Of a stretch of DNA of 30,500 nt, positions 4,411-30,500 are shown one piece after another. A program made the position numbers and the translations under genes. Below the pieces are notes generated by a model. That model was not told the origin of the DNA. It did no database searches and saw only the letters and a list, made by a program, of their open reading frames with translations. The stretch is taken from the IMG/VR virus record IMGVR_UViG_3300035070_002546, positions 1 through 30,500 of that record; one strand, written 5' to 3'. This stretch comes from a virus. Positions within the stretch are counted from its first letter, which is position 1; each line of letters opens with the position of its first letter.

Positions 4411-4782
4411 TTACATTCTTTTACCCATACTAGCACCTATTGCAGTACCAACTAAACGGGAGGTTAATAAATCATAAAAGATACCCTTATTGATACCTAA
4501 AACTCTTGCAATCATTTTACCAACTGATTTACCTAAAGCAAATCCAGCTAATCCACCAATAATTGAACCAAAGATACCTTCGTTAGTAAGCTCTTCATTA
4601 AGTCTTTCTAGATCATAGGTTCCATCTTCTTTCATGTATTCTTTTTCAAATACATCTAGTGCCTCATCAATTTGAGCCTCTAGTTCTGGTGTCCATTCTT
4701 CTTGTAAGCCCTCTCTGATAAGTTCGTAATCTTGTTCAGATATTTCGTTCTCTACTAAGTAGTCATTAAATGTTTTCATCAT
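4411..4782 (-). CDS. putative internal head protein with T4-type capsid-targeting peptide
   Basis: A 123-residue protein of unknown family. Residues 2-11, MKTFNDYLVE, closely resemble the capsid-targeting sequence of the T4 internal proteins IPI-IPIII (MKTYQEFIAE). That peptide is cut by the prohead protease gp21 after (I/L)-x-E, and LVE at 9-11 fits. Further L/I-x-E sites are IRE (22-24), LQE (26-28) and LNE (61-63). Residues 12-69 are strongly acidic. Residues 70-120 are glycine-rich and hydrophobic (GSIIGGLAGFALGKSVGK and LVGTAIGASMGKR), like a glycine-zipper membrane segment. The inference is a protein packaged in the head, cleaved and injected with the DNA, perhaps acting at the host membrane. 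Alternatives are a scaffold-core component or a holin-like membrane protein. Start could be M1 or M2; M2 gives the exact targeting peptide. Confidence 0.55.
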   Translation of the reverse strand: MMKTFNDYLVENEISEQDYELIREGLQEEWTPELEAQIDEALDVFEKEYMKEDGTYDLERLNEELTNEGIFGSIIGGLAGFALGKSVGKMIARVLGINKGIFYDLLTSRLVGTAIGASMGKRM

Positions 4783-8275: not shown

Positions 8276-10498
8276 CTAGACTCCCACAGAGCCTGTCGGT
8301 GTAGAGCTAGCTCCGCCCCCCGCTAGTACAGGGAGATTATCAATAGTTGTCTGTTCTTTATATAAATTACCGGCCATTGTAGCATTATCCCCAGCATAGA
8401 GGAAGTTCTGTTTACTTGTGTCTATAACATCATATGACTTAACATCAGTAGGTATACTAAAATTAAAAGATATAGTAGTTACAGCCGCCTCTTGTGGTGT
8501 TGTTCCACCAGCCGCAGCGGTTGCAAAAGTATTCTGATTTGCTCTTAAATCCCCTAATGTCATGTATGGTATAAGCATTTTACCAACGTTATCAGTAGTA
8601 CTACCACTATAAGGATTACCCTTCTCACGGTAAGTTTTCCACCAATCTTGGCCCCAACTTGGGTGTATTTTAGCTATATTAAAGTAATTAGCACCTGGTG
8701 GTATTGCACCCCAAAAATCAAATGGCTCCAGGATAGCTGAGTTATTATAATCGTCAATAAGCTCACTAGTCATAAGTCTTTGTGGTATTGGAAAATAAAT
8801 CCAATCATCACTTGCGTTTGTATATGGGAATGTAGCTAGTTCTGCAAAATAAAATGCTATCCTTCCTTCCAATATAAACTCCGCGTCATCCCATGTCTGC
8901 ACTGTGCTCATCGTGTTATTGTAGTGCATTTCACCATTTATATTAGCGCCGGCTGTGATCAAATCGATATCTAATGCCACGGGATAAAAGCTAATGGAAC
9001 CCCAGCACTGAACCATATGCCCAGTTTTAACATAAGATAATTTAGTTGTGGGCTCAATTAATGGTAGAGCAATATTAGTTTCTATGTTGTGTGTATTATA
9101 ACTAATACCACCCAGGCTGCTTATTGTCTTTGTTTGTTGTCTATGTACCCATAATAATTTATACGATACTTTAGGGTTTGGGCTTGGATTAAAAGTAAAT
9201 CTCTCGCCAGGTGAGCTATAAGGATAAGAAACCGGTAGCGCCGGTAAACCATATGTGGACTGTACAAATGGTTGACTATTTGTGATTTCCACTGCTGTTG
9301 AATCACAAAACACTGACTCTTGATAAAAATAATCATCCAGCCTTCTAAACTCTTTAGCAGATGCAGAATTAGCAGGCTGTGCTTGGTCAGCTCCCAAAGA
9401 GACTGTTTTTGCTTTAATAAGAAAACCTTGATCCTCATCTACTACAATATCTCCTTGATTAAATTGATCAGTTTTGAATTGAATAGCATTTGTTGATACT
9501 ATAGTTCCATCAGAGAGGTCTTCGCCCATTGTAGCTACTTCACCCCCACCAACAATGCCGACAGTCCCAACATTAAATCTTAAAATATCTTCATCTGTAT
9601 TCTGTTCTGCTACAATATAAGTATCTTGATCAGTGTCAATTAAACCACCTAGGCCTTTCCAAATAGTGCCATCATATCCTTCAAAGCTTGTAAGGGTTTG
9701 ATTATATCTAATCATACCCTGTATGCCAGTAGGCCTATCAGCAGTTGTACCTGCAGGTATCTTAATATGGCTTGTTCCAGTAACATTTAAATAGCCAGTT
9801 ACAAGAACAGGCCTTGCAATATTAACAAAACCAGTACTACCAGTTATTTCAATATTACCACCACTAGCAAAAGTAATATTAGATGATGTGGTTGTAATAT
9901 TAACCTCACTATCTGCTACAACTTTAAACTTGTCAGATATAAATTCAATTCCTAAAGAATTTAAAGATGAGCCAAGATCAGGCTTAGTAGAAAACCAAGT
10001 AGTAGACCCATCATATCTATGATTAACATTTAAAACATGATCGGAGTTTTTGTAATATTTTAAAAAATGACCTACTTCATCTGGATCTGTTCCAGTCTCT
10101 AACGTTAATCTAGCCTCTCCATTTGTTTTACCGGGTCCGACGCCTTCTTCAAAATCAGAGTCTCCAAGCCATATTGTCGGTGACTTAGTAACACTAGCAG
10201 ATTTAGGTTTAATTATAATACTATCATTAGGCGAGGGACCAGTTGCGGTACCAATTGCTACAGAGTCCCATAATGTAATTGCAGTCCCTGGTTCTCCTTT
10301 AGGGCCAGTTGTTCCAAGTTCCCCCTTTTGACCTTTAACACCAGTTGCACCATCGGCACCTTGCTCTCCCTTAACGCCTTGTATTCCCTGCGGACCTCCC
10401 CCATTAGCTAGTATTTGGTCAAAATTATAGTTAACCTTTTCAAACTTAATAGAGTCTGAATCACTTGGATGTAGAATTTCTTTTATATTGATTGCCAT
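8276..10498 (-). CDS. collagen-like tail fibre protein
   Basis: A 740-residue fibre. The N-terminus (NIKEILHPSDSDSIKFEKVN, residues 4-23, then NFDQIL) resembles that of the 191-residue fibre-like protein at 21438-22013 and is probably the attachment module. Residues 35-73 form 13 uninterrupted G-x-y triplets rich in K, E, Q and P, a collagen-like triple helix. A stem of repeated beta strands follows (about 180-250). Next comes DRPTGIQGMIRYN plus FEGYDGTIWKGL (254-283), a module common in phage fibre proteins where a shaft meets the next domain. The C-terminal 400 residues are aromatic-rich and probably form the receptor-binding head. The chain ends in a flexible G/S/T/P tail. The start follows an A/T leader with no Shine-Dalgarno. 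A GATATATA motif lies 58 bases upstream. Confidence 0.75.
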   Translation of the reverse strand: MAINIKEILHPSDSDSIKFEKVNYNFDQILANGGGPQGIQGVKGEQGADGATGVKGQKGELGTTGPKGEPGTAITLWDSVAIGTATGPSPNDSIIIKPKSASVTKSPTIWLGDSDFEEGVGPGKTNGEARLTLETGTDPDEVGHFLKYYKNSDHVLNVNHRYDGSTTWFSTKPDLGSSLNSLGIEFISDKFKVVADSEVNITTTSSNITFASGGNIEITGSTGFVNIARPVLVTGYLNVTGTSHIKIPAGTTADRPTGIQGMIRYNQTLTSFEGYDGTIWKGLGGLIDTDQDTYIVAEQNTDEDILRFNVGTVGIVGGGEVATMGEDLSDGTIVSTNAIQFKTDQFNQGDIVVDEDQGFLIKAKTVSLGADQAQPANSASAKEFRRLDDYFYQESVFCDSTAVEITNSQPFVQSTYGLPALPVSYPYSSPGERFTFNPSPNPKVSYKLLWVHRQQTKTISSLGGISYNTHNIETNIALPLIEPTTKLSYVKTGHMVQCWGSISFYPVALDIDLITAGANINGEMHYNNTMSTVQTWDDAEFILEGRIAFYFAELATFPYTNASDDWIYFPIPQRLMTSELIDDYNNSAILEPFDFWGAIPPGANYFNIAKIHPSWGQDWWKTYREKGNPYSGSTTDNVGKMLIPYMTLGDLRANQNTFATAAAGGTTPQEAAVTTISFNFSIPTDVKSYDVIDTSKQNFLYAGDNATMAGNLYKEQTTIDNLPVLAGGGASSTPTGSVGV

Positions 10499-25073: not shown

Positions 25074-26906
25074 TTATTTAAGTGCTTTTCTATTTCCTGC
25101 TTGTACCCTAGTATAAATAGTTCTAGGTACTGGTTTTGCATCAAAGTTAATACTTAACGCAGCTTCTTCATTCATAAGAACATCATCAACAATAACATCA
25201 CCATCTCTATCTTCCCATCCACCTCTGAATACCGCAACCTCTTCTTTTCCAATAATAATATCTCCCCATTGGTCTAGTCCTTTAATATCCTCAGGTATAT
25301 CATCTCCTAGAGTTACCGGTACTTTCTTGATAGTTTCAATTTTCTTGAAGAAAACATATTTTTGTTTACCATCTCCAATATCTTCTAGTACTACAGGTTC
25401 TTGTGGAACTACGGTTGTAGTAACTGATTCATAATAATTATTTCTAATTGCAGTCTCTTCAGTTTCTGAAATAAATCTAACATTTACAGAATCAATTCCC
25501 TCAACTTCTTCTAAGATATAAACAATATCTGATTTTGGTAATTTATCTCTTCTTGTAATATTTAATAAGTAGTTTGCAACAACTCCTCTAACATCATTAA
25601 AAATGTCACTCTTAGAGAAACCTTCAAAATATCTAATATCAATATCCATAGAATATTTTTTAATCTTAGGTTTAACAAAACTAACCTCTGTTGTCACCAT
25701 CATTTGACCAGAGTCCTGCAGTACCTTTAACATTGCGTCATATTCAGACTGAGCAAAGAACATCTCTTGTTCAGGTATTGAGAAATAATCTTGACCCTTA
25801 GCAATCTTCCTTTTAACATCCGGTGTTGCAAAAATATAGATTACATTATCATCATCTAGGTAATTGTCATCTGTTGTATTGTAAGCGTCAATATAAGAGA
25901 ACATCCCATACTTAGAAAGGAAATACTCATAATTATCTGGGGTTGCCAGTACGAAGCTCTTAGATGCCATAGGCGTTAAGATTTTTGTAAAATCAATTGA
26001 CTCCCTATCAGCTCCCATTTTTGGAGAAGATGTAACTTTAACATCTAATAATTCATTAAGATCGTGAAATACACCAGCTCCATCTTGTCCTTCAACTGTA
26101 AATTTAACTTTAAGCTCTTCAGAGTCATTAATATTACCAGCAGCACCTTTATGTACCAAATATTCAACTTCAATAATAGCACCTTCCGGTGGAATCATAC
26201 CAAAGTTTCCGTTTCCAAAATAAAGATCTATACCTCCAGCAATACCTGTTTTAAGAAGGTAGCCTTTTTCATTAGCAAGTATATCGTATAATGATTCATG
26301 CTTAGTCCATTTTTCACCATTAACACTAACAGTTACTCTATTATGGTCTGTTAAACTACTACCAGTTTTTATATTAAAAGATTGCATTGCATCTCCACTA
26401 GAAGTAAGGGTTTGATCTTCATAAACACCTTGTACAATAGCAGTTGTTATTGAATTAGAATTTGTTTTATCAATTCTAAAAAATTCTTTAGGGGTTAATA
26501 ATGTATAGAATAAACCATTAGTCTCAAATACAACCTCGGCTCTTCCATCTATTACTATACCATTCCCTGCAATTTTTGCCATGGCAGCACCAATTTTCCA
26601 TCTAAATTGAATTTCACCAAACGCAGCATAACCTCTAGTTGCATCATGTCCTGTTAATCTTGACATCCCATATACAGATTCTGCATGCTGTGCAGTATAT
26701 ATGTTTTGTTCTACTACAGAATCCTCAATATAAAACATTAATAACTCAGAAATATCAGAAAGAACCGATATTATTTGAGCAAATGGAGAAGCTGCCGTAA
26801 ATAAAACAGCAGACCTTTTATACACCCTAGTAATATACGTAGATGCATCCTGCCTAATCTGATTGGCAGTAGCTCTAATATTATTTAAAAATTTTAATTC
26901 GGCCAT
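25074..26906 (-). CDS. 6: baseplate wedge protein, T4 gp6-like (baseplate J family)
   Basis: A 610-residue protein; T4 gp6 has 660. The N-terminal helical region, ASPFAQIISVLSDISELLMF (about 39-58) with SVVEQNIYTAQHAESVYGMSRLTGH (62-86), is the classic start of gp6/baseplate J proteins, where a helix is followed by ARxxGxxP-like packing. Further signs are GGIDLYFGNGNFGMIPPEGA (landmark FGNGNFG, about 226-232), a region that in this family marks the J-like core, and VEYLVHKGAAGNIND. The C-terminal domain has RYFEGFSKSDIFNDVRGVV and KLPKSDIVYILEEVEGIDSV, typical of the gp6 dimerisation region. gp6 subunits form the inner ring that joins the wedges. It is 16 bases from the gp25-like gene, with TATAAGTA in the spacer. 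Confidence 0.8.
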   Translation of the reverse strand: MAELKFLNNIRATANQIRQDASTYITRVYKRSAVLFTAASPFAQIISVLSDISELLMFYIEDSVVEQNIYTAQHAESVYGMSRLTGHDATRGYAAFGEIQFRWKIGAAMAKIAGNGIVIDGRAEVVFETNGLFYTLLTPKEFFRIDKTNSNSITTAIVQGVYEDQTLTSSGDAMQSFNIKTGSSLTDHNRVTVSVNGEKWTKHESLYDILANEKGYLLKTGIAGGIDLYFGNGNFGMIPPEGAIIEVEYLVHKGAAGNINDSEELKVKFTVEGQDGAGVFHDLNELLDVKVTSSPKMGADRESIDFTKILTPMASKSFVLATPDNYEYFLSKYGMFSYIDAYNTTDDNYLDDDNVIYIFATPDVKRKIAKGQDYFSIPEQEMFFAQSEYDAMLKVLQDSGQMMVTTEVSFVKPKIKKYSMDIDIRYFEGFSKSDIFNDVRGVVANYLLNITRRDKLPKSDIVYILEEVEGIDSVNVRFISETEETAIRNNYYESVTTTVVPQEPVVLEDIGDGKQKYVFFKKIETIKKVPVTLGDDIPEDIKGLDQWGDIIIGKEEVAVFRGGWEDRDGDVIVDDVLMNEEAALSINFDAKPVPRTIYTRVQAGNRKALK

Positions 26907-26922
26907 TTTTCTTACTTATAAT

Positions 26923-27276
26923 TTATGCTCGTACCTTTACTGAGTACTTATTATCTATCTTAATATCTATATAACCAATATCACGAGCATCACCTTTTTC
27001 AAATGTAACATCAATTGTCACATTATGTTTTTCCGATAATGGGCAATAATCAGTTAATTGGTTTCTAATTTCTTGTCTAATTTTATATTCAGCAAATCCA
27101 AATGTAAATAGCATATCTTCTAAACTGCATCCGAAATCAGGCATACCCAAAACATCTCCCTTTTTAGTGAATAAAATAGTTTCAATTTGAGTAATGAGTT
27201 GTTGAATCTCATCCTCAAGTTGAAGTTTACCAACTTCAAACCCGGGATCGTCATACGCTTTAATATAAATCTCCAT
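26923..27276 (-). CDS. 25: baseplate wedge protein, T4 gp25-like
   Basis: A 117-residue protein of the gp25/TssE family, which binds the gp6 inner ring and nucleates the sheath. T4 gp25 has 132 residues. The family signature MPDFGCSLEDMLF (45-57) matches PEFGCDLSDQLF in T4 (D-F-G-C-x-L). The helix EYKIRQEIRNQLTDY leads to the place where the family has its E-P-R motif (NYEPRI in T4); here it reads DYCPLS, so E and R are both absent. The C-terminal strands (VTIDVTFEKGD and GYIDIKIDNKYSVKV) are as expected. The short N-terminus lacks the first 15 or so residues of T4. It lies immediately upstream of the gp6-like gene, in keeping with their direct contact. Confidence 0.8.
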   Translation of the reverse strand: MEIYIKAYDDPGFEVGKLQLEDEIQQLITQIETILFTKKGDVLGMPDFGCSLEDMLFTFGFAEYKIRQEIRNQLTDYCPLSEKHNVTIDVTFEKGDARDIGYIDIKIDNKYSVKVRA

Positions 27277-27294
27277 CTATTATATATTCTATTT

Positions 27295-28137
27295 TTATGA
27301 ATGGAACATCCAGTCCACTCCTTCGTCTCCTTTGATTTCCTCTTCAATTGTTGCTAATTCTTCATCACCCATATCTTTAATTGCTCCATAATCAAATTCT
27401 ACATTACCAGGCATTGCAAACTTAAAGATACCTAACTTAGCTCCTAATGATTGTTTTATTTTTGCACTAATATACCTAAAGAAAAGCTCATCCTCGTACA
27501 GGGCACAGTCTGAGATGGTCTCATAGACCTCAAGGATAACATCTCCCTTTGGAGTATCACCCATGATCTTTAAATCACCAGTTAATTGTGAATAATTATA
27601 AGAGATTGGATTATTTAAGATTTGTCTAGACATATCTGCTAATGAGGCATTAAGCACGTAGTATTGTAATTCCTCTGCTTGTTCAGCTGCACCAGAACCT
27701 TCTGACATTCCTCTAAATAACATCTTCTCCATAGAGAAATCAGAACCACCTTGAAATCTAACATCCATTCCACCGCCAGCTGAGTTCCAACCTGATGAAA
27801 GATCATATAACCCATAAACAGAATAAACCTGTCCACTACCATCAGCACTTGCGCCTGGTAAAGTTAAAGTTCTATTATCTTTAAAATATTGTGTAGAGAA
27901 TATTGAATTAGGGATATGGTAATAGTTCTCCTTTACAGAATATTCATACTTCTTATAGAACCATTTTTTAGCTCTCTTAATAATGTTAATGATTTCACGT
28001 TGTGGCAACTGTACAGGTACCATACAAGCCCCTGTAATATCATCGGCAATTTCACTAAGAAACGCGTTTAGGCAATTACCACCAAAATCTCTTGGTGTAT
28101 TTAAACTACTTTCGTTTCCGCTTCTAATTTCACTCAT
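27295..28137 (-). CDS. 13: neck protein, T4 gp13-like head completion protein
   Basis: In T4 gp13 closes the filled head together with gp14 and makes the site to which the tail joins. This product has 280 residues, against 309. [20 protein letters not shown] (44-63) corresponds to [20 protein letters not shown] in T4. [20 protein letters not shown] (183-202) and EVYET correspond to [41 protein letters not shown] followed by [11 protein letters not shown] corresponds to the helix before the MLPGGVTIDG end of gp13. The N-terminal 40 residues are extended compared with T4. Neighbours here are gp25 and gp6 rather than gp14 and gp15, so gene order is rearranged. The alignment is by eye; a related neck protein cannot be excluded. 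Confidence 0.68.
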   Translation of the reverse strand: [280 protein letters not shown]

Positions 28138-28141
28138 TTTA

Positions 28142-29449
28142 TTATTTTATTTTTTTACTTACTACTATTTCAGTATCTTCAAATCTAGCATTCTTTTTCA
28201 TCATACCTTCTCTAAATATACCTCCAATCATTTTACCTGCAAACACACCATCTCTACCAAATACATAGCAGTTAGTTAATTCACAGCTACCATTGACATA
28301 GGACGATTCAATTTTAGATTCTAATATATTTGTATTTCGATAGAAGTCACATCTAAGTAGATTAGCACCCTTAATTGTACAGCCATAAAAGTTTGAAGTC
28401 TCAATATTACCACCCAATTCACAGTTTATAAAATCATAGCCCTGTAATAGATAACAAAGGCCAAATTTACCGTCTTTAATTTGTATACGCCCTAAATCAC
28501 TGTCATAATTAATTGTACCAGAAGTCATACTACCATTTACAATTAAATCCATAACCTTCTTTTTGATGTCAGGCCATCTTAGTTGTATAACCTGTGGATG
28601 GTCTTGTAAGTCTACTAGTAAGTTTATGTCAGGCCAATATTTATTAATCTTGGTCCAATCCTTAAGAGATTCAGTTATTGGTAAGTTCTTATTAAGTATT
28701 TTTCTAAGTTCAATCTTATTCTCTTCAGTAAACAGCGGATCATTACATGAATTCCACATTTGCATTAAGAATGCTTCAGTAAGATAGAATACATCTTCTG
28801 TTTTATTCTCATAATCTGCACCACCTAAATACCTAAACTCTAAATAATTGCTCTCTTTTTTAGAAAAGTTAATTCCATAATATTTAGTGTCTGCAAATTT
28901 ATAACTCATTGACGAAATATTACTTCCATCAAAGAAATAAGCCTCATCTTTTGGCATAATCCATTTTATGCTTTTGGCATAAACCGAGTTCTCTCTACCT
29001 GGAAAGAATTTGTAAACTTGTCTTTCGTTAAAATCAAGAATAAACTTTAAGACATTCATCTTAGAGATCATTGCAGGATCTTCTAAATATTTTTTATCAA
29101 AAGAAAGGTTGATATGAATAGAAGCTCTATCATTAGTATATCCGTTCTCTCGGATCCACTTCATCATATTAGAAATCATGATTCTAGCGTTTCTATATGG
29201 AATTGGCCCAGTAACTAATTCTGCTAGCCCTTTACCACCAGACATATCTGGTTCCAATTTAAACTCATCAGCCGATGGCTGGAAATCTGAATGTGCTTTA
29301 GTTTCAAGCCTAATAGGTCGGCCTAAAAGCTCACTCAATGATTTTCGAGTCTCTTCTAGGCCGATATTAGAGTAGAATTCGAACTCGACTCCCACTAGTG
29401 CAGCGTTTAGTATCGAGTTGCGATCTGAATTCCTATTTAATTTTTGCAT
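28142..29449 (-). CDS. putative amidoligase fused to pentapeptide-like repeat domain
   Basis: A 435-residue protein whose first 250 residues fit the carboxylate-amine ligase (amidoligase/GCS2-like) superfamily. That superfamily couples ATP hydrolysis to amide-bond formation between a carboxylate and an amine. Landmarks are VGVEFEFYSN (19-28), AELVTGPIPY (76-85), NDRASIHINLSF (106-117; the H in a beta strand) and YYGINFSKKESNYLEFRYLGG (190-210; landmarks GINFS and EFRYLGG), in the family order G-x-E-x-E, E-L-V-x-P, H-x-N/H and E-x-R. The C-terminal part (about 335-425) has short tandem units such as CTIKGANLLRCDFYRN and CELTNCYVFGRD, like a pentapeptide or small beta-helix. The substrate is unknown; modification of a virion, cell-wall or host protein is speculation. 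It lies 4 bases from the neck gene and 56 bases from the S1-like gene, so it is probably co-expressed with structural genes. Confidence 0.72.
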   Translation of the reverse strand: MQKLNRNSDRNSILNAALVGVEFEFYSNIGLEETRKSLSELLGRPIRLETKAHSDFQPSADEFKLEPDMSGGKGLAELVTGPIPYRNARIMISNMMKWIRENGYTNDRASIHINLSFDKKYLEDPAMISKMNVLKFILDFNERQVYKFFPGRENSVYAKSIKWIMPKDEAYFFDGSNISSMSYKFADTKYYGINFSKKESNYLEFRYLGGADYENKTEDVFYLTEAFLMQMWNSCNDPLFTEENKIELRKILNKNLPITESLKDWTKINKYWPDINLLVDLQDHPQVIQLRWPDIKKKVMDLIVNGSMTSGTINYDSDLGRIQIKDGKFGLCYLLQGYDFINCELGGNIETSNFYGCTIKGANLLRCDFYRNTNILESKIESSYVNGSCELTNCYVFGRDGVFAGKMIGGIFREGMMKKNARFEDTEIVVSKKIK

Positions 29450-29505: not shown

Positions 29506-30500
29506 TTATGGCATCTTTAAGAATACCTTTTTACTTTCTGTATCAATTCTTGTAATCTGTACAGTGATCTTATCACCTGGATTAAAGACATCCATCAAGG
29601 CATCGTCAAGTTCACTAACATGTAGTAATCCAGTAACTCCTTCTTCAATGTTTATAAATAAACCATACTCTTTTTTAGTTTTAATAACAGCTTCAACTGT
29701 AGTCGGTATTTGATACCTTGTAGCAATATCTAACCATGGGCTAATAACTGCGTTATCTTTTTGAGTTAAAGTGATTTTAGTATTAGATACAACATCTTTT
29801 ACTTTAAATTTAATTTCATCACCTGGTTTAATTTCTCTTGCTTTGAATGCCGGCATCGTATCCTCATCTAAATCATTAACATGGATCATACCAGTTAAAC
29901 ATTTATTAAATTCAACAAAGACTCCATACTTAGCAGATCCAGTAACATTCCCAGTATACTCAACATCCATATTATCTTTAATAGCCTGTAATTCATTTGG
30001 AATCATAGCCTGTAGATATTTTCTGTGAGATACAACAATCGTTCCTCTATCTGGTGAGAAGCTTACCGGTACTACATACATTTCAGTGCCAATAATAGAT
30101 TCAAAATCATGTAGTTTATTAATCCCTGCAAGTGAACCTGGCATAAAGCAATCAATACCTTGTACATTTACAATATAACCTCCGTTTGAGATCATGTTAG
30201 TTACAACACCAACCCATGCAGTATCTTCACTTTCAACACCAGCTCTTAGATCTAAGAATACTTTATGTTTAATACCACCTGAAATAGATCCAAGTATATG
30301 GGTATTTGATTTAGATGTAGTAATTAATACTGCTGTTTCATCACCAGGCATCAATGTTTTAACCTGATCACTTTCCTTGTCGTATTTAACATAGATCAAT
30401 TCCCTGTAACCAACGTCCACTGAAATCATATCAGTAGTCATTGCATGGATTCTACCTTCATAGATTTCACCTTCATTAATCTGTGGAATAATATCACTTA
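29506..30500 (-). CDS. S1-domain RNA-binding protein (ribosomal protein S1-like), C-terminal part
   Basis: The frame stays open to the right edge. An ATG at 30441 is internal, because the 19 codons before it (ending EGEIYEGRIHAM) are the normal first strand of an S1 domain. At least four S1-type OB folds are visible: one starting at EGEIYEGRIHAMTTDMISVD (30490-30420); a second around AWVGVVTNMISNGGYIVNVQ; a third around VEYTGNVTGSAKYGVFVEFN with LTGMIHVNDLD; and a fourth around EAVIKTKKEYGLFINIEEGV with TGLLHVSELD and a final KKVFLKMP. Linkers such as PGDEIKFKVKDV and PGDKITVQITRI are typical. The role is presumably RNA binding and translation of phage messages. It resembles bacterial ribosomal protein S1 rather than a tail protein. 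It ends TAATAA and is followed by the amidoligase. The start lies outside the window. Confidence 0.88.
   Translation of the reverse strand, partial: SDIIPQINEGEIYEGRIHAMTTDMISVDVGYRELIYVKYDKESDQVKTLMPGDETAVLITTSKSNTHILGSISGGIKHKVFLDLRAGVESEDTAWVGVVTNMISNGGYIVNVQGIDCFMPGSLAGINKLHDFESIIGTEMYVVPVSFSPDRGTIVVSHRKYLQAMIPNELQAIKDNMDVEYTGNVTGSAKYGVFVEFNKCLTGMIHVNDLDEDTMPAFKAREIKPGDEIKFKVKDVVSNTKITLTQKDNAVISPWLDIATRYQIPTTVEAVIKTKKEYGLFINIEEGVTGLLHVSELDDALMDVFNPGDKITVQITRIDTESKKVFLKMP

Follow-up and report, generated by a model that had tools for sequence, protein, structure and literature searches.

A widespread, divergent, stand-alone amidoligase fused to a beta-helix in huge phages and their marine relatives

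The amidoligase gene and its neighbors

The window, by which we mean the whole 30,500-nucleotide stretch of viral DNA analyzed here (positions 1 to 30,500 of IMG/VR record IMGVR_UViG_3300035070_002546), carries on its minus strand an ORF of 435 aa that lies among virion genes (Table 1). The first-pass annotation had read its product as an amidoligase-like enzyme fused to a pentapeptide-like domain. The four motifs on which that reading was built, GVEFEF, AELVTGP, SIHINLSF, and EFRYLGG, are all present in the order given, and the Cys/Asn/Phe/Leu-rich units described for the C-terminus are found at about residues 307–418.

Table 1. Features of the amidoligase locus and the basis on which each was assigned
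Feature	Position in window	Strand	Residues or evidence
gp6-like baseplate wedge protein	25074..26906	minus	phrog_219, 1.2e-26
gp25-like baseplate wedge protein	26923..27276	minus	phrog_261, 1.3e-5; Pfam GPW_gp25 24.9 bits, under the 27.2 cut-off
gp13-like neck protein (head-tail adaptor Ad2)	27295..28137	minus	phrog_211, E 4.5e-10
Amidoligase/beta-helix fusion protein	28142..29449	minus	435 aa ORF, PF12224 match, AlphaFold2 model
Predicted right-handed beta-helix, pentapeptide-repeat-like	28151..28528	minus	Residues 308-433; model, structural, and profile matches
Helical segment	28538..28726	minus	Residues 242-304; AlphaFold2 secondary structure
Glutamine-synthetase-like catalytic domain	28730..29428	minus	Residues about 8-240; VIA-align and PF12224
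Motif 4, LEFRYLGG	28820..28843	minus	E204 and R206; EFRYLGG is residues 204-210
Motif 3, SIHINLSF	29099..29122	minus	Residues 110-117; H112, N114, S116
Motif 2, EPDMSGGKGLAELVTGP	29204..29254	minus	D68 and E77; AELVTGP is residues 76-82
Motif 1, GVEFEF	29375..29392	minus	Residues 20-25; E22 and E24
S1-domain RNA-binding-type protein	29506..30441	minus	PF00575, 4e-21

The gp13-like gene begins only 4 bp past the amidoligase stop codon, and relatives of its product carry the annotation "neck protein." Together with the matches to the gp25-like and gp6-like genes, this bears out the neck and baseplate neighbors that had been described at the locus. An S1-domain gene sits 56 bp upstream of the amidoligase, and its product is a steady upstream neighbor within the virion gene cluster of the marine clade. 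Further along the window, the minus-strand ORF at 8276–10498 encodes a protein of 740 aa, probably a fiber protein, that opens with a collagen-like stretch of Gly-X-Y units (GPQGIQGVKGEQGADGATG...).

In the marine clade, the order S1, amidoligase, gp13, gp25, gp6 is constant, that is, the placement within the virion-assembly cluster is conserved, and the amidoligase and neck genes are found side by side in fragments of marine phages, which number at least in the dozens. Of 80 gp13-centered loci fetched by gp13 alone, all have the amidoligase immediately upstream of gp13; being close relatives of the window gp13, these loci represent one clade. Pairwise distances between amidoligases track those of gp6, S1, and gp13 (Spearman 0.90, 0.88, and 0.85, respectively), as expected under vertical inheritance together with the virion module. 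Despite rearrangement, the gene is also found no more than about 3 kb from gp13 in LR756500, LR756504, and the contig L162. The two are hundreds of kb apart, however, in three of the huge-phage genomes (634, 642, and 735 kb); the link between amidoligase and gp13 is therefore strong in one clade, without being universal.

The last ten residues of the gp13-like protein, KGDEGVDWMFHS, reach the 98th percentile of that protein's conservation in the marine clade and were considered as a clue to the substrate. This candidate was dropped: the tails differ in other amidoligase carriers (L061, L162, LR756502) and in non-carriers, so that the gp13 C-terminus points to no substrate.

Family, predicted fold, and conservation of the two domains

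Using hmmscan, the window protein matches PF12224 (Amidoligase_2) at residues 18–118 with 25.9 bits, above the curated cut-off of 22 bits. A PF12224 profile search of the whole window record returned no match; divergent members are missed in this way, and we relied on the protein-level search. The match is significant, as the amidoligase assignment had predicted, and no similarity to a known nonenzymatic virion protein was found. The ORF and its motifs lie far beyond chance, given 55 near relatives in IMG/VR by single-sequence search and at least 548 when the search was guided by a profile (599 candidate stretches, of which 548 were confirmed among the matches listed), a whole-gene dN/dS of 0.07–0.09, which indicates purifying selection, and main motif residues that are invariant in 51 of 51 homologues. 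The evidence that the protein belongs to the amidoligase family is strong. Because only 19 of the 51 homologues match Amidoligase_2 at E≤0.1, we would class the fusion protein, judging by its sequence, as a divergent branch of that family.

The AlphaFold2 model, built with 51 homologues in the alignment, has a pLDDT of 90.5 and shows what the first-pass annotation had anticipated from a structure prediction, a ligase fold with a separate right-handed beta-helix. The glutamine synthetase (GS) catalytic fold is seen in this predicted model, with the E.E, E, H, and E.R active-site motifs present; the best match of the catalytic domain using VIA-align is to glutamine synthetase 4bax (Z 12.1, 183 residues at 3.4 A). 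In the viral Foldseek library, the top structural neighbor is A0A6J5PQ40, followed by many proteins named amidoligase enzyme.

Eleven positions (E22, E24, D68, E77, H112, N114, S116, R152, K159, E204, and R206) are invariant in all 51 diverse homologues, so the predicted metal- and ATP-binding residues have been kept rather than lost. By analogy with the GS/GCS superfamily, E22 and E24 are predicted metal ligands, and the other active-site residues would take metal and phosphate roles. The ligase part is under tighter constraint (dN/dS 0.03–0.05) than the helix (0.10–0.16). The invariance of the predicted active site and the low ligase dN/dS point to a working enzyme, and the comparison of sequences argues for an active site that is apparently intact.

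One should be careful to distinguish this protein from genuine glutamine synthetases. PF00120 has the fold seen in residues 8–239 of the window protein and analogous E.E, H.N.S, and E.R motifs, and the motifs of genuine phage GS (GWEQEY, NGSGCHVNFS, and YFEDRRPAS) resemble those of the fusion protein, with SIHINLSF resembling GCHVNFS and LEFRYLGG resembling YFEDRRPAS. Nevertheless, hmmscan gave no PF00120 match to the window protein at E values up to 10, and a profile–profile comparison detected no sequence homology to the phage glutamine synthetases (hhalign probability 0.4%). Separate, genuine PF00120 genes occur in LR745206 (L255), LR756501 (L256), and the contig of L162 (L257); since huge phages do carry such genes, the "glutamine synthetase" reported in related moraphages (PMC12619734) could be genuine.

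The C-terminal domain (residues 300–435) modeled alone has a pLDDT of 95.2 and forms a right-handed quadrilateral beta-helix. The closest structural matches that can be interpreted are the pentapeptide protein 2j8k (VIA-align Z 9.4, 119 residues at 3.1 A) and several other pentapeptide-repeat proteins (Z 8–9.6 at 3–4.5 A), pentapeptide proteins head the list in a PDB profile search with the helix (from 1.7e-5), and 21 of the 51 homologues have sub-threshold Pentapeptide_4 matches (E≤0.1). Left-handed-type matches to eIF2B and AntD (rmsd >11 A) were rejected as probable handedness mismatches. The separate right-handed helix thus stands, while the pentapeptide label holds only in part: PF00805 and PF13599 do not match the window protein, the best of the tabulated homologues reaches 26.8 bits against a Pfam cut-off of 38, and the hydrophobicity spectrum is globally non-significant at period 5. 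The geometry is similar to that of the right-handed beta-helices of MfpA, AlbG, Qnr, and the designed beta1, but the repeat is irregular. On the structural matches and the sequence profiles that agree with them, we describe the modeled domain as a degenerate pentapeptide-like right-handed beta-helix, without a textbook pentapeptide array.

Relatives in huge phages and beyond

Outside the marine clade, relatives with 31–39% identity are found in huge phages, namely LR756500 (462 kb), LR745206 (634 kb), LR756504 (636 kb), LR756502 (642 kb), and LR756501 (735 kb). All five of these complete genomes carry one full-length copy; LR756502 has an additional weak fragment (1.2e-4) with two internal stop codons. 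Four of them agree in size with the four largest genomes of Al-Shayeb et al. (634, 636, 642, and 735 kb), who assigned theirs to the Mahaphage clade and predicted Bacteroidetes as the hosts (PMC7162821).

An N-terminus of the form MK-x-[IL]-x-x-[FY]-x-x-F[LIV]-x-E (e.g., MKYILEYEEFLLE) is shared by many ORFs, in L058 (8 ORFs), L061 (5 ORFs), L140, L162, and the window (4411–4782, minus strand). It resembles the capsid-targeting leader of the T4 internal head proteins, and huge phages possibly use it on a large set of proteins that are packaged or injected. MKYLK is likewise the start of some genes that immediately follow the amidoligase in freshwater Mahaphages (L060:13350-13778 and L061:13340-14011).

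The nearest architectural match is A0A6J5PQ40, an uncharacterized protein of an uncultured Caudovirales phage, which aligns over its full length (TM 0.87 over 438 columns) and has the same two domains at 24% identity. One homologue of the fusion protein matches phrog_2443. PF12224 and PHROG 2443 ("amidoligase enzyme") share its motif order, GS-like fold, and active-site residues; unlike them, the window protein has an added C-terminal beta-helix and stands alone in a virion cluster. A publication describing an amidoligase with a beta-helix was not found in the literature searched.

The family profile also reaches Agrobacterium phage Atu_ph07, where AUZ94978.1 ("Amidoligase enzyme") has a homologous catalytic domain (profile E 4.3e-20, Foldseek E 3e-10). 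It lies near portal and prohead genes but does not adjoin gp13 and has no pentapeptide model match in Pfam. Virion proteomics of Atu_ph07 recorded 131 proteins, and the main text of that report does not name AUZ94978.1 (PMC6102473). A more distant amidoligase, matched by the Atu_ph07 query only, is encoded in the small Bacteroidota prophage BK068099 of Porphyromonas (L269:11923-12876), between adaptor and neck genes and with no GATase annotated nearby. With about 317 aa it probably lacks a comparable second domain, and the prophage is a possible independent case of a morphogenesis-linked amidoligase. Salicola phage SCTP-2 gave only a weak tblastn match (6e-3).

The family profile found no match in two Lak phages or in Tenacibaculum phage PTm1 and Chryseobacterium phage MA9V-2, both smaller Bacteroidota phages. 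Nor did it find one anywhere in the T4 genome, in agreement with the earlier remark that T4 has no such gene. Scans of bacterial and archaeal genomes returned no cellular or prophage relatives.

Proposed function and its alternatives

We tentatively favor an active amidoligase, encoded on its own, whose substrate is a carboxylate on a virion or assembly protein and whose helix is used for docking or oligomerization, while regarding this reading as slightly more apt to be wrong than right. ATP would phosphorylate the substrate carboxylate, the metal being held by residues such as E22, E24, E77, H112, and E204; the amide would form as an amine takes the place of the phosphate. The enzyme would act alone, without an amidotransferase to supply ammonia. 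Within such a protein, the target would most likely be either the C-terminus or an Asp or Glu side chain, and the nucleophile could be an amino acid, an amine, or a lysine side chain. The beta-helix may position the virion or assembly protein or oligomerize the enzyme. We infer the chemistry from membership of the amidoligase family and the target from the location of the gene; the activity, its timing, the nucleophile, and the role of the helix are put forward in the same conditional sense. The Pup ligase PafA, a protein-to-protein isopeptide ligase of the same superfamily, links two proteins through a carboxylate on one and a lysine on the other; hmmscan gave no PafA profile match in the window protein.

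In favor of this reading as a whole we count the PF12224 match, the GS fold, the residues invariant in 51 of 51 homologues, the ligase dN/dS, the gene order and the 80/80 placement, as well as the distance tracking, the closeness to gp13 in LR756500, LR756504, and L162, the lack of GATase_6 described below, and the Porphyromonas prophage. Three observations count against it, namely the hundreds of kb between the amidoligase and gp13 in three huge genomes (634, 642, and 735 kb), the gp13 C-terminus that points to no substrate, and the lack of family matches in T4, the two Lak phages, PTm1, and MA9V-2, which means that necks can be built without the amidoligase. Adjacency in a phage genome need not imply functional coupling. 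The first-pass annotation had proposed the modification of a virion or injected protein, with the helix binding the target, and both parts stay proposals here. A more specific form, in which the enzyme makes amide or isopeptide modifications on neck, tail, or other virion proteins during assembly and is targeted by the pentapeptide-like helix, we hold to be somewhat unlikely.

Other phage-borne proteins with the amidoligase fold suggest a different role. In phiEco32, LUZ24, tf, RIO-1, and PSA-HP1, the amidoligase is part of a cassette that also contains GATase, ATP-grasp, and gamma-glutamyl cyclotransferase genes and for which a change to peptidoglycan has been proposed (PMC5498523), and the amidoligase cassette genes of the LUZ24-like phage UFV-P2 are counted as early genes (PMC3890496). 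Cellulophaga phage phi14:2, which also has the fold, carries the same type of cassette. The present enzyme, being of the same Pfam family as those of phiEco32, LUZ24, and RIO-1, might likewise make uncommon amide or gamma-glutamyl bonds, either in peptides of the cell wall or in a small metabolite, and so alter the host surface (e.g., for superinfection exclusion). Phage amidoligases have been proposed in print to act in this way (PMC5498523; PMC10580990), a proposal itself unproven, and a gamma-glutamyl cyclotransferase (PF06094) is present, but unlinked, in three freshwater huge phages (LR756501, LR745206, and LR756502). The phiEco32/LUZ24-type cassettes, which include a COOH-NH2 ligase, lie outside the virion genes, whereas the window amidoligase stands by itself within a virion cluster. 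Furthermore, GATase_6 (PF13522) was found in none of 12 genome records with the present branch or its relatives (14/14 controls were positive), COOH-NH2_lig (PF14395) was likewise absent from the 12 records in a search that does match phi14:2, and PF06094 is missing both from LR756500 and LR756504, which are complete, and from four partial records. We consider a cell-wall or metabolite substrate unlikely, if still to be taken seriously.

The location among neck and baseplate genes and the separate helical domain would also suit an assembly factor whose role is mainly structural or chaperone-like, with the enzyme fold as a scaffold and the beta-helix, like other phage beta-helices, as the working part. 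A nonenzymatic scaffold would, however, be expected to lose its catalytic positions; here they are invariant, and the ligase part is more constrained than the helix, which makes this explanation quite improbable. Lastly, by analogy with the RimK-type tailing of ribosomal protein S6, the substrate might be a translation component, for instance the S1-domain protein encoded next door or the S1 of the host, and not a virion protein; the S1-domain gene is steadily next to the amidoligase in the marine clade and nearby in LR756500, but tblastn found no S1 relative near the amidoligase in the 634–735 kb phages and the S1 C-terminus is conserved no more than average, and we give this very little credence.

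Phage amidoligases have been annotated for more than a decade, and we know of none with a proven substrate. The current cell-wall proposal rests on cassettes with GATase and cyclotransferase genes, and the stand-alone branch fused to a beta-helix breaks that pattern: it is widespread and divergent, occurs in huge phages and in marine relatives of these, adjoins the neck gene in one marine clade, and is retained by phages of 634–735 kb. If the enzyme does modify a virion protein, it would add a new step to tailed-phage assembly, and an amide or isopeptide modification of the virion would be a maturation chemistry that T4-type phages are not known to have and that the largest known phages carry. 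Even if the virion-protein reading is wrong, this common and conserved enzyme lends itself to direct tests of what phage amidoligases act on.
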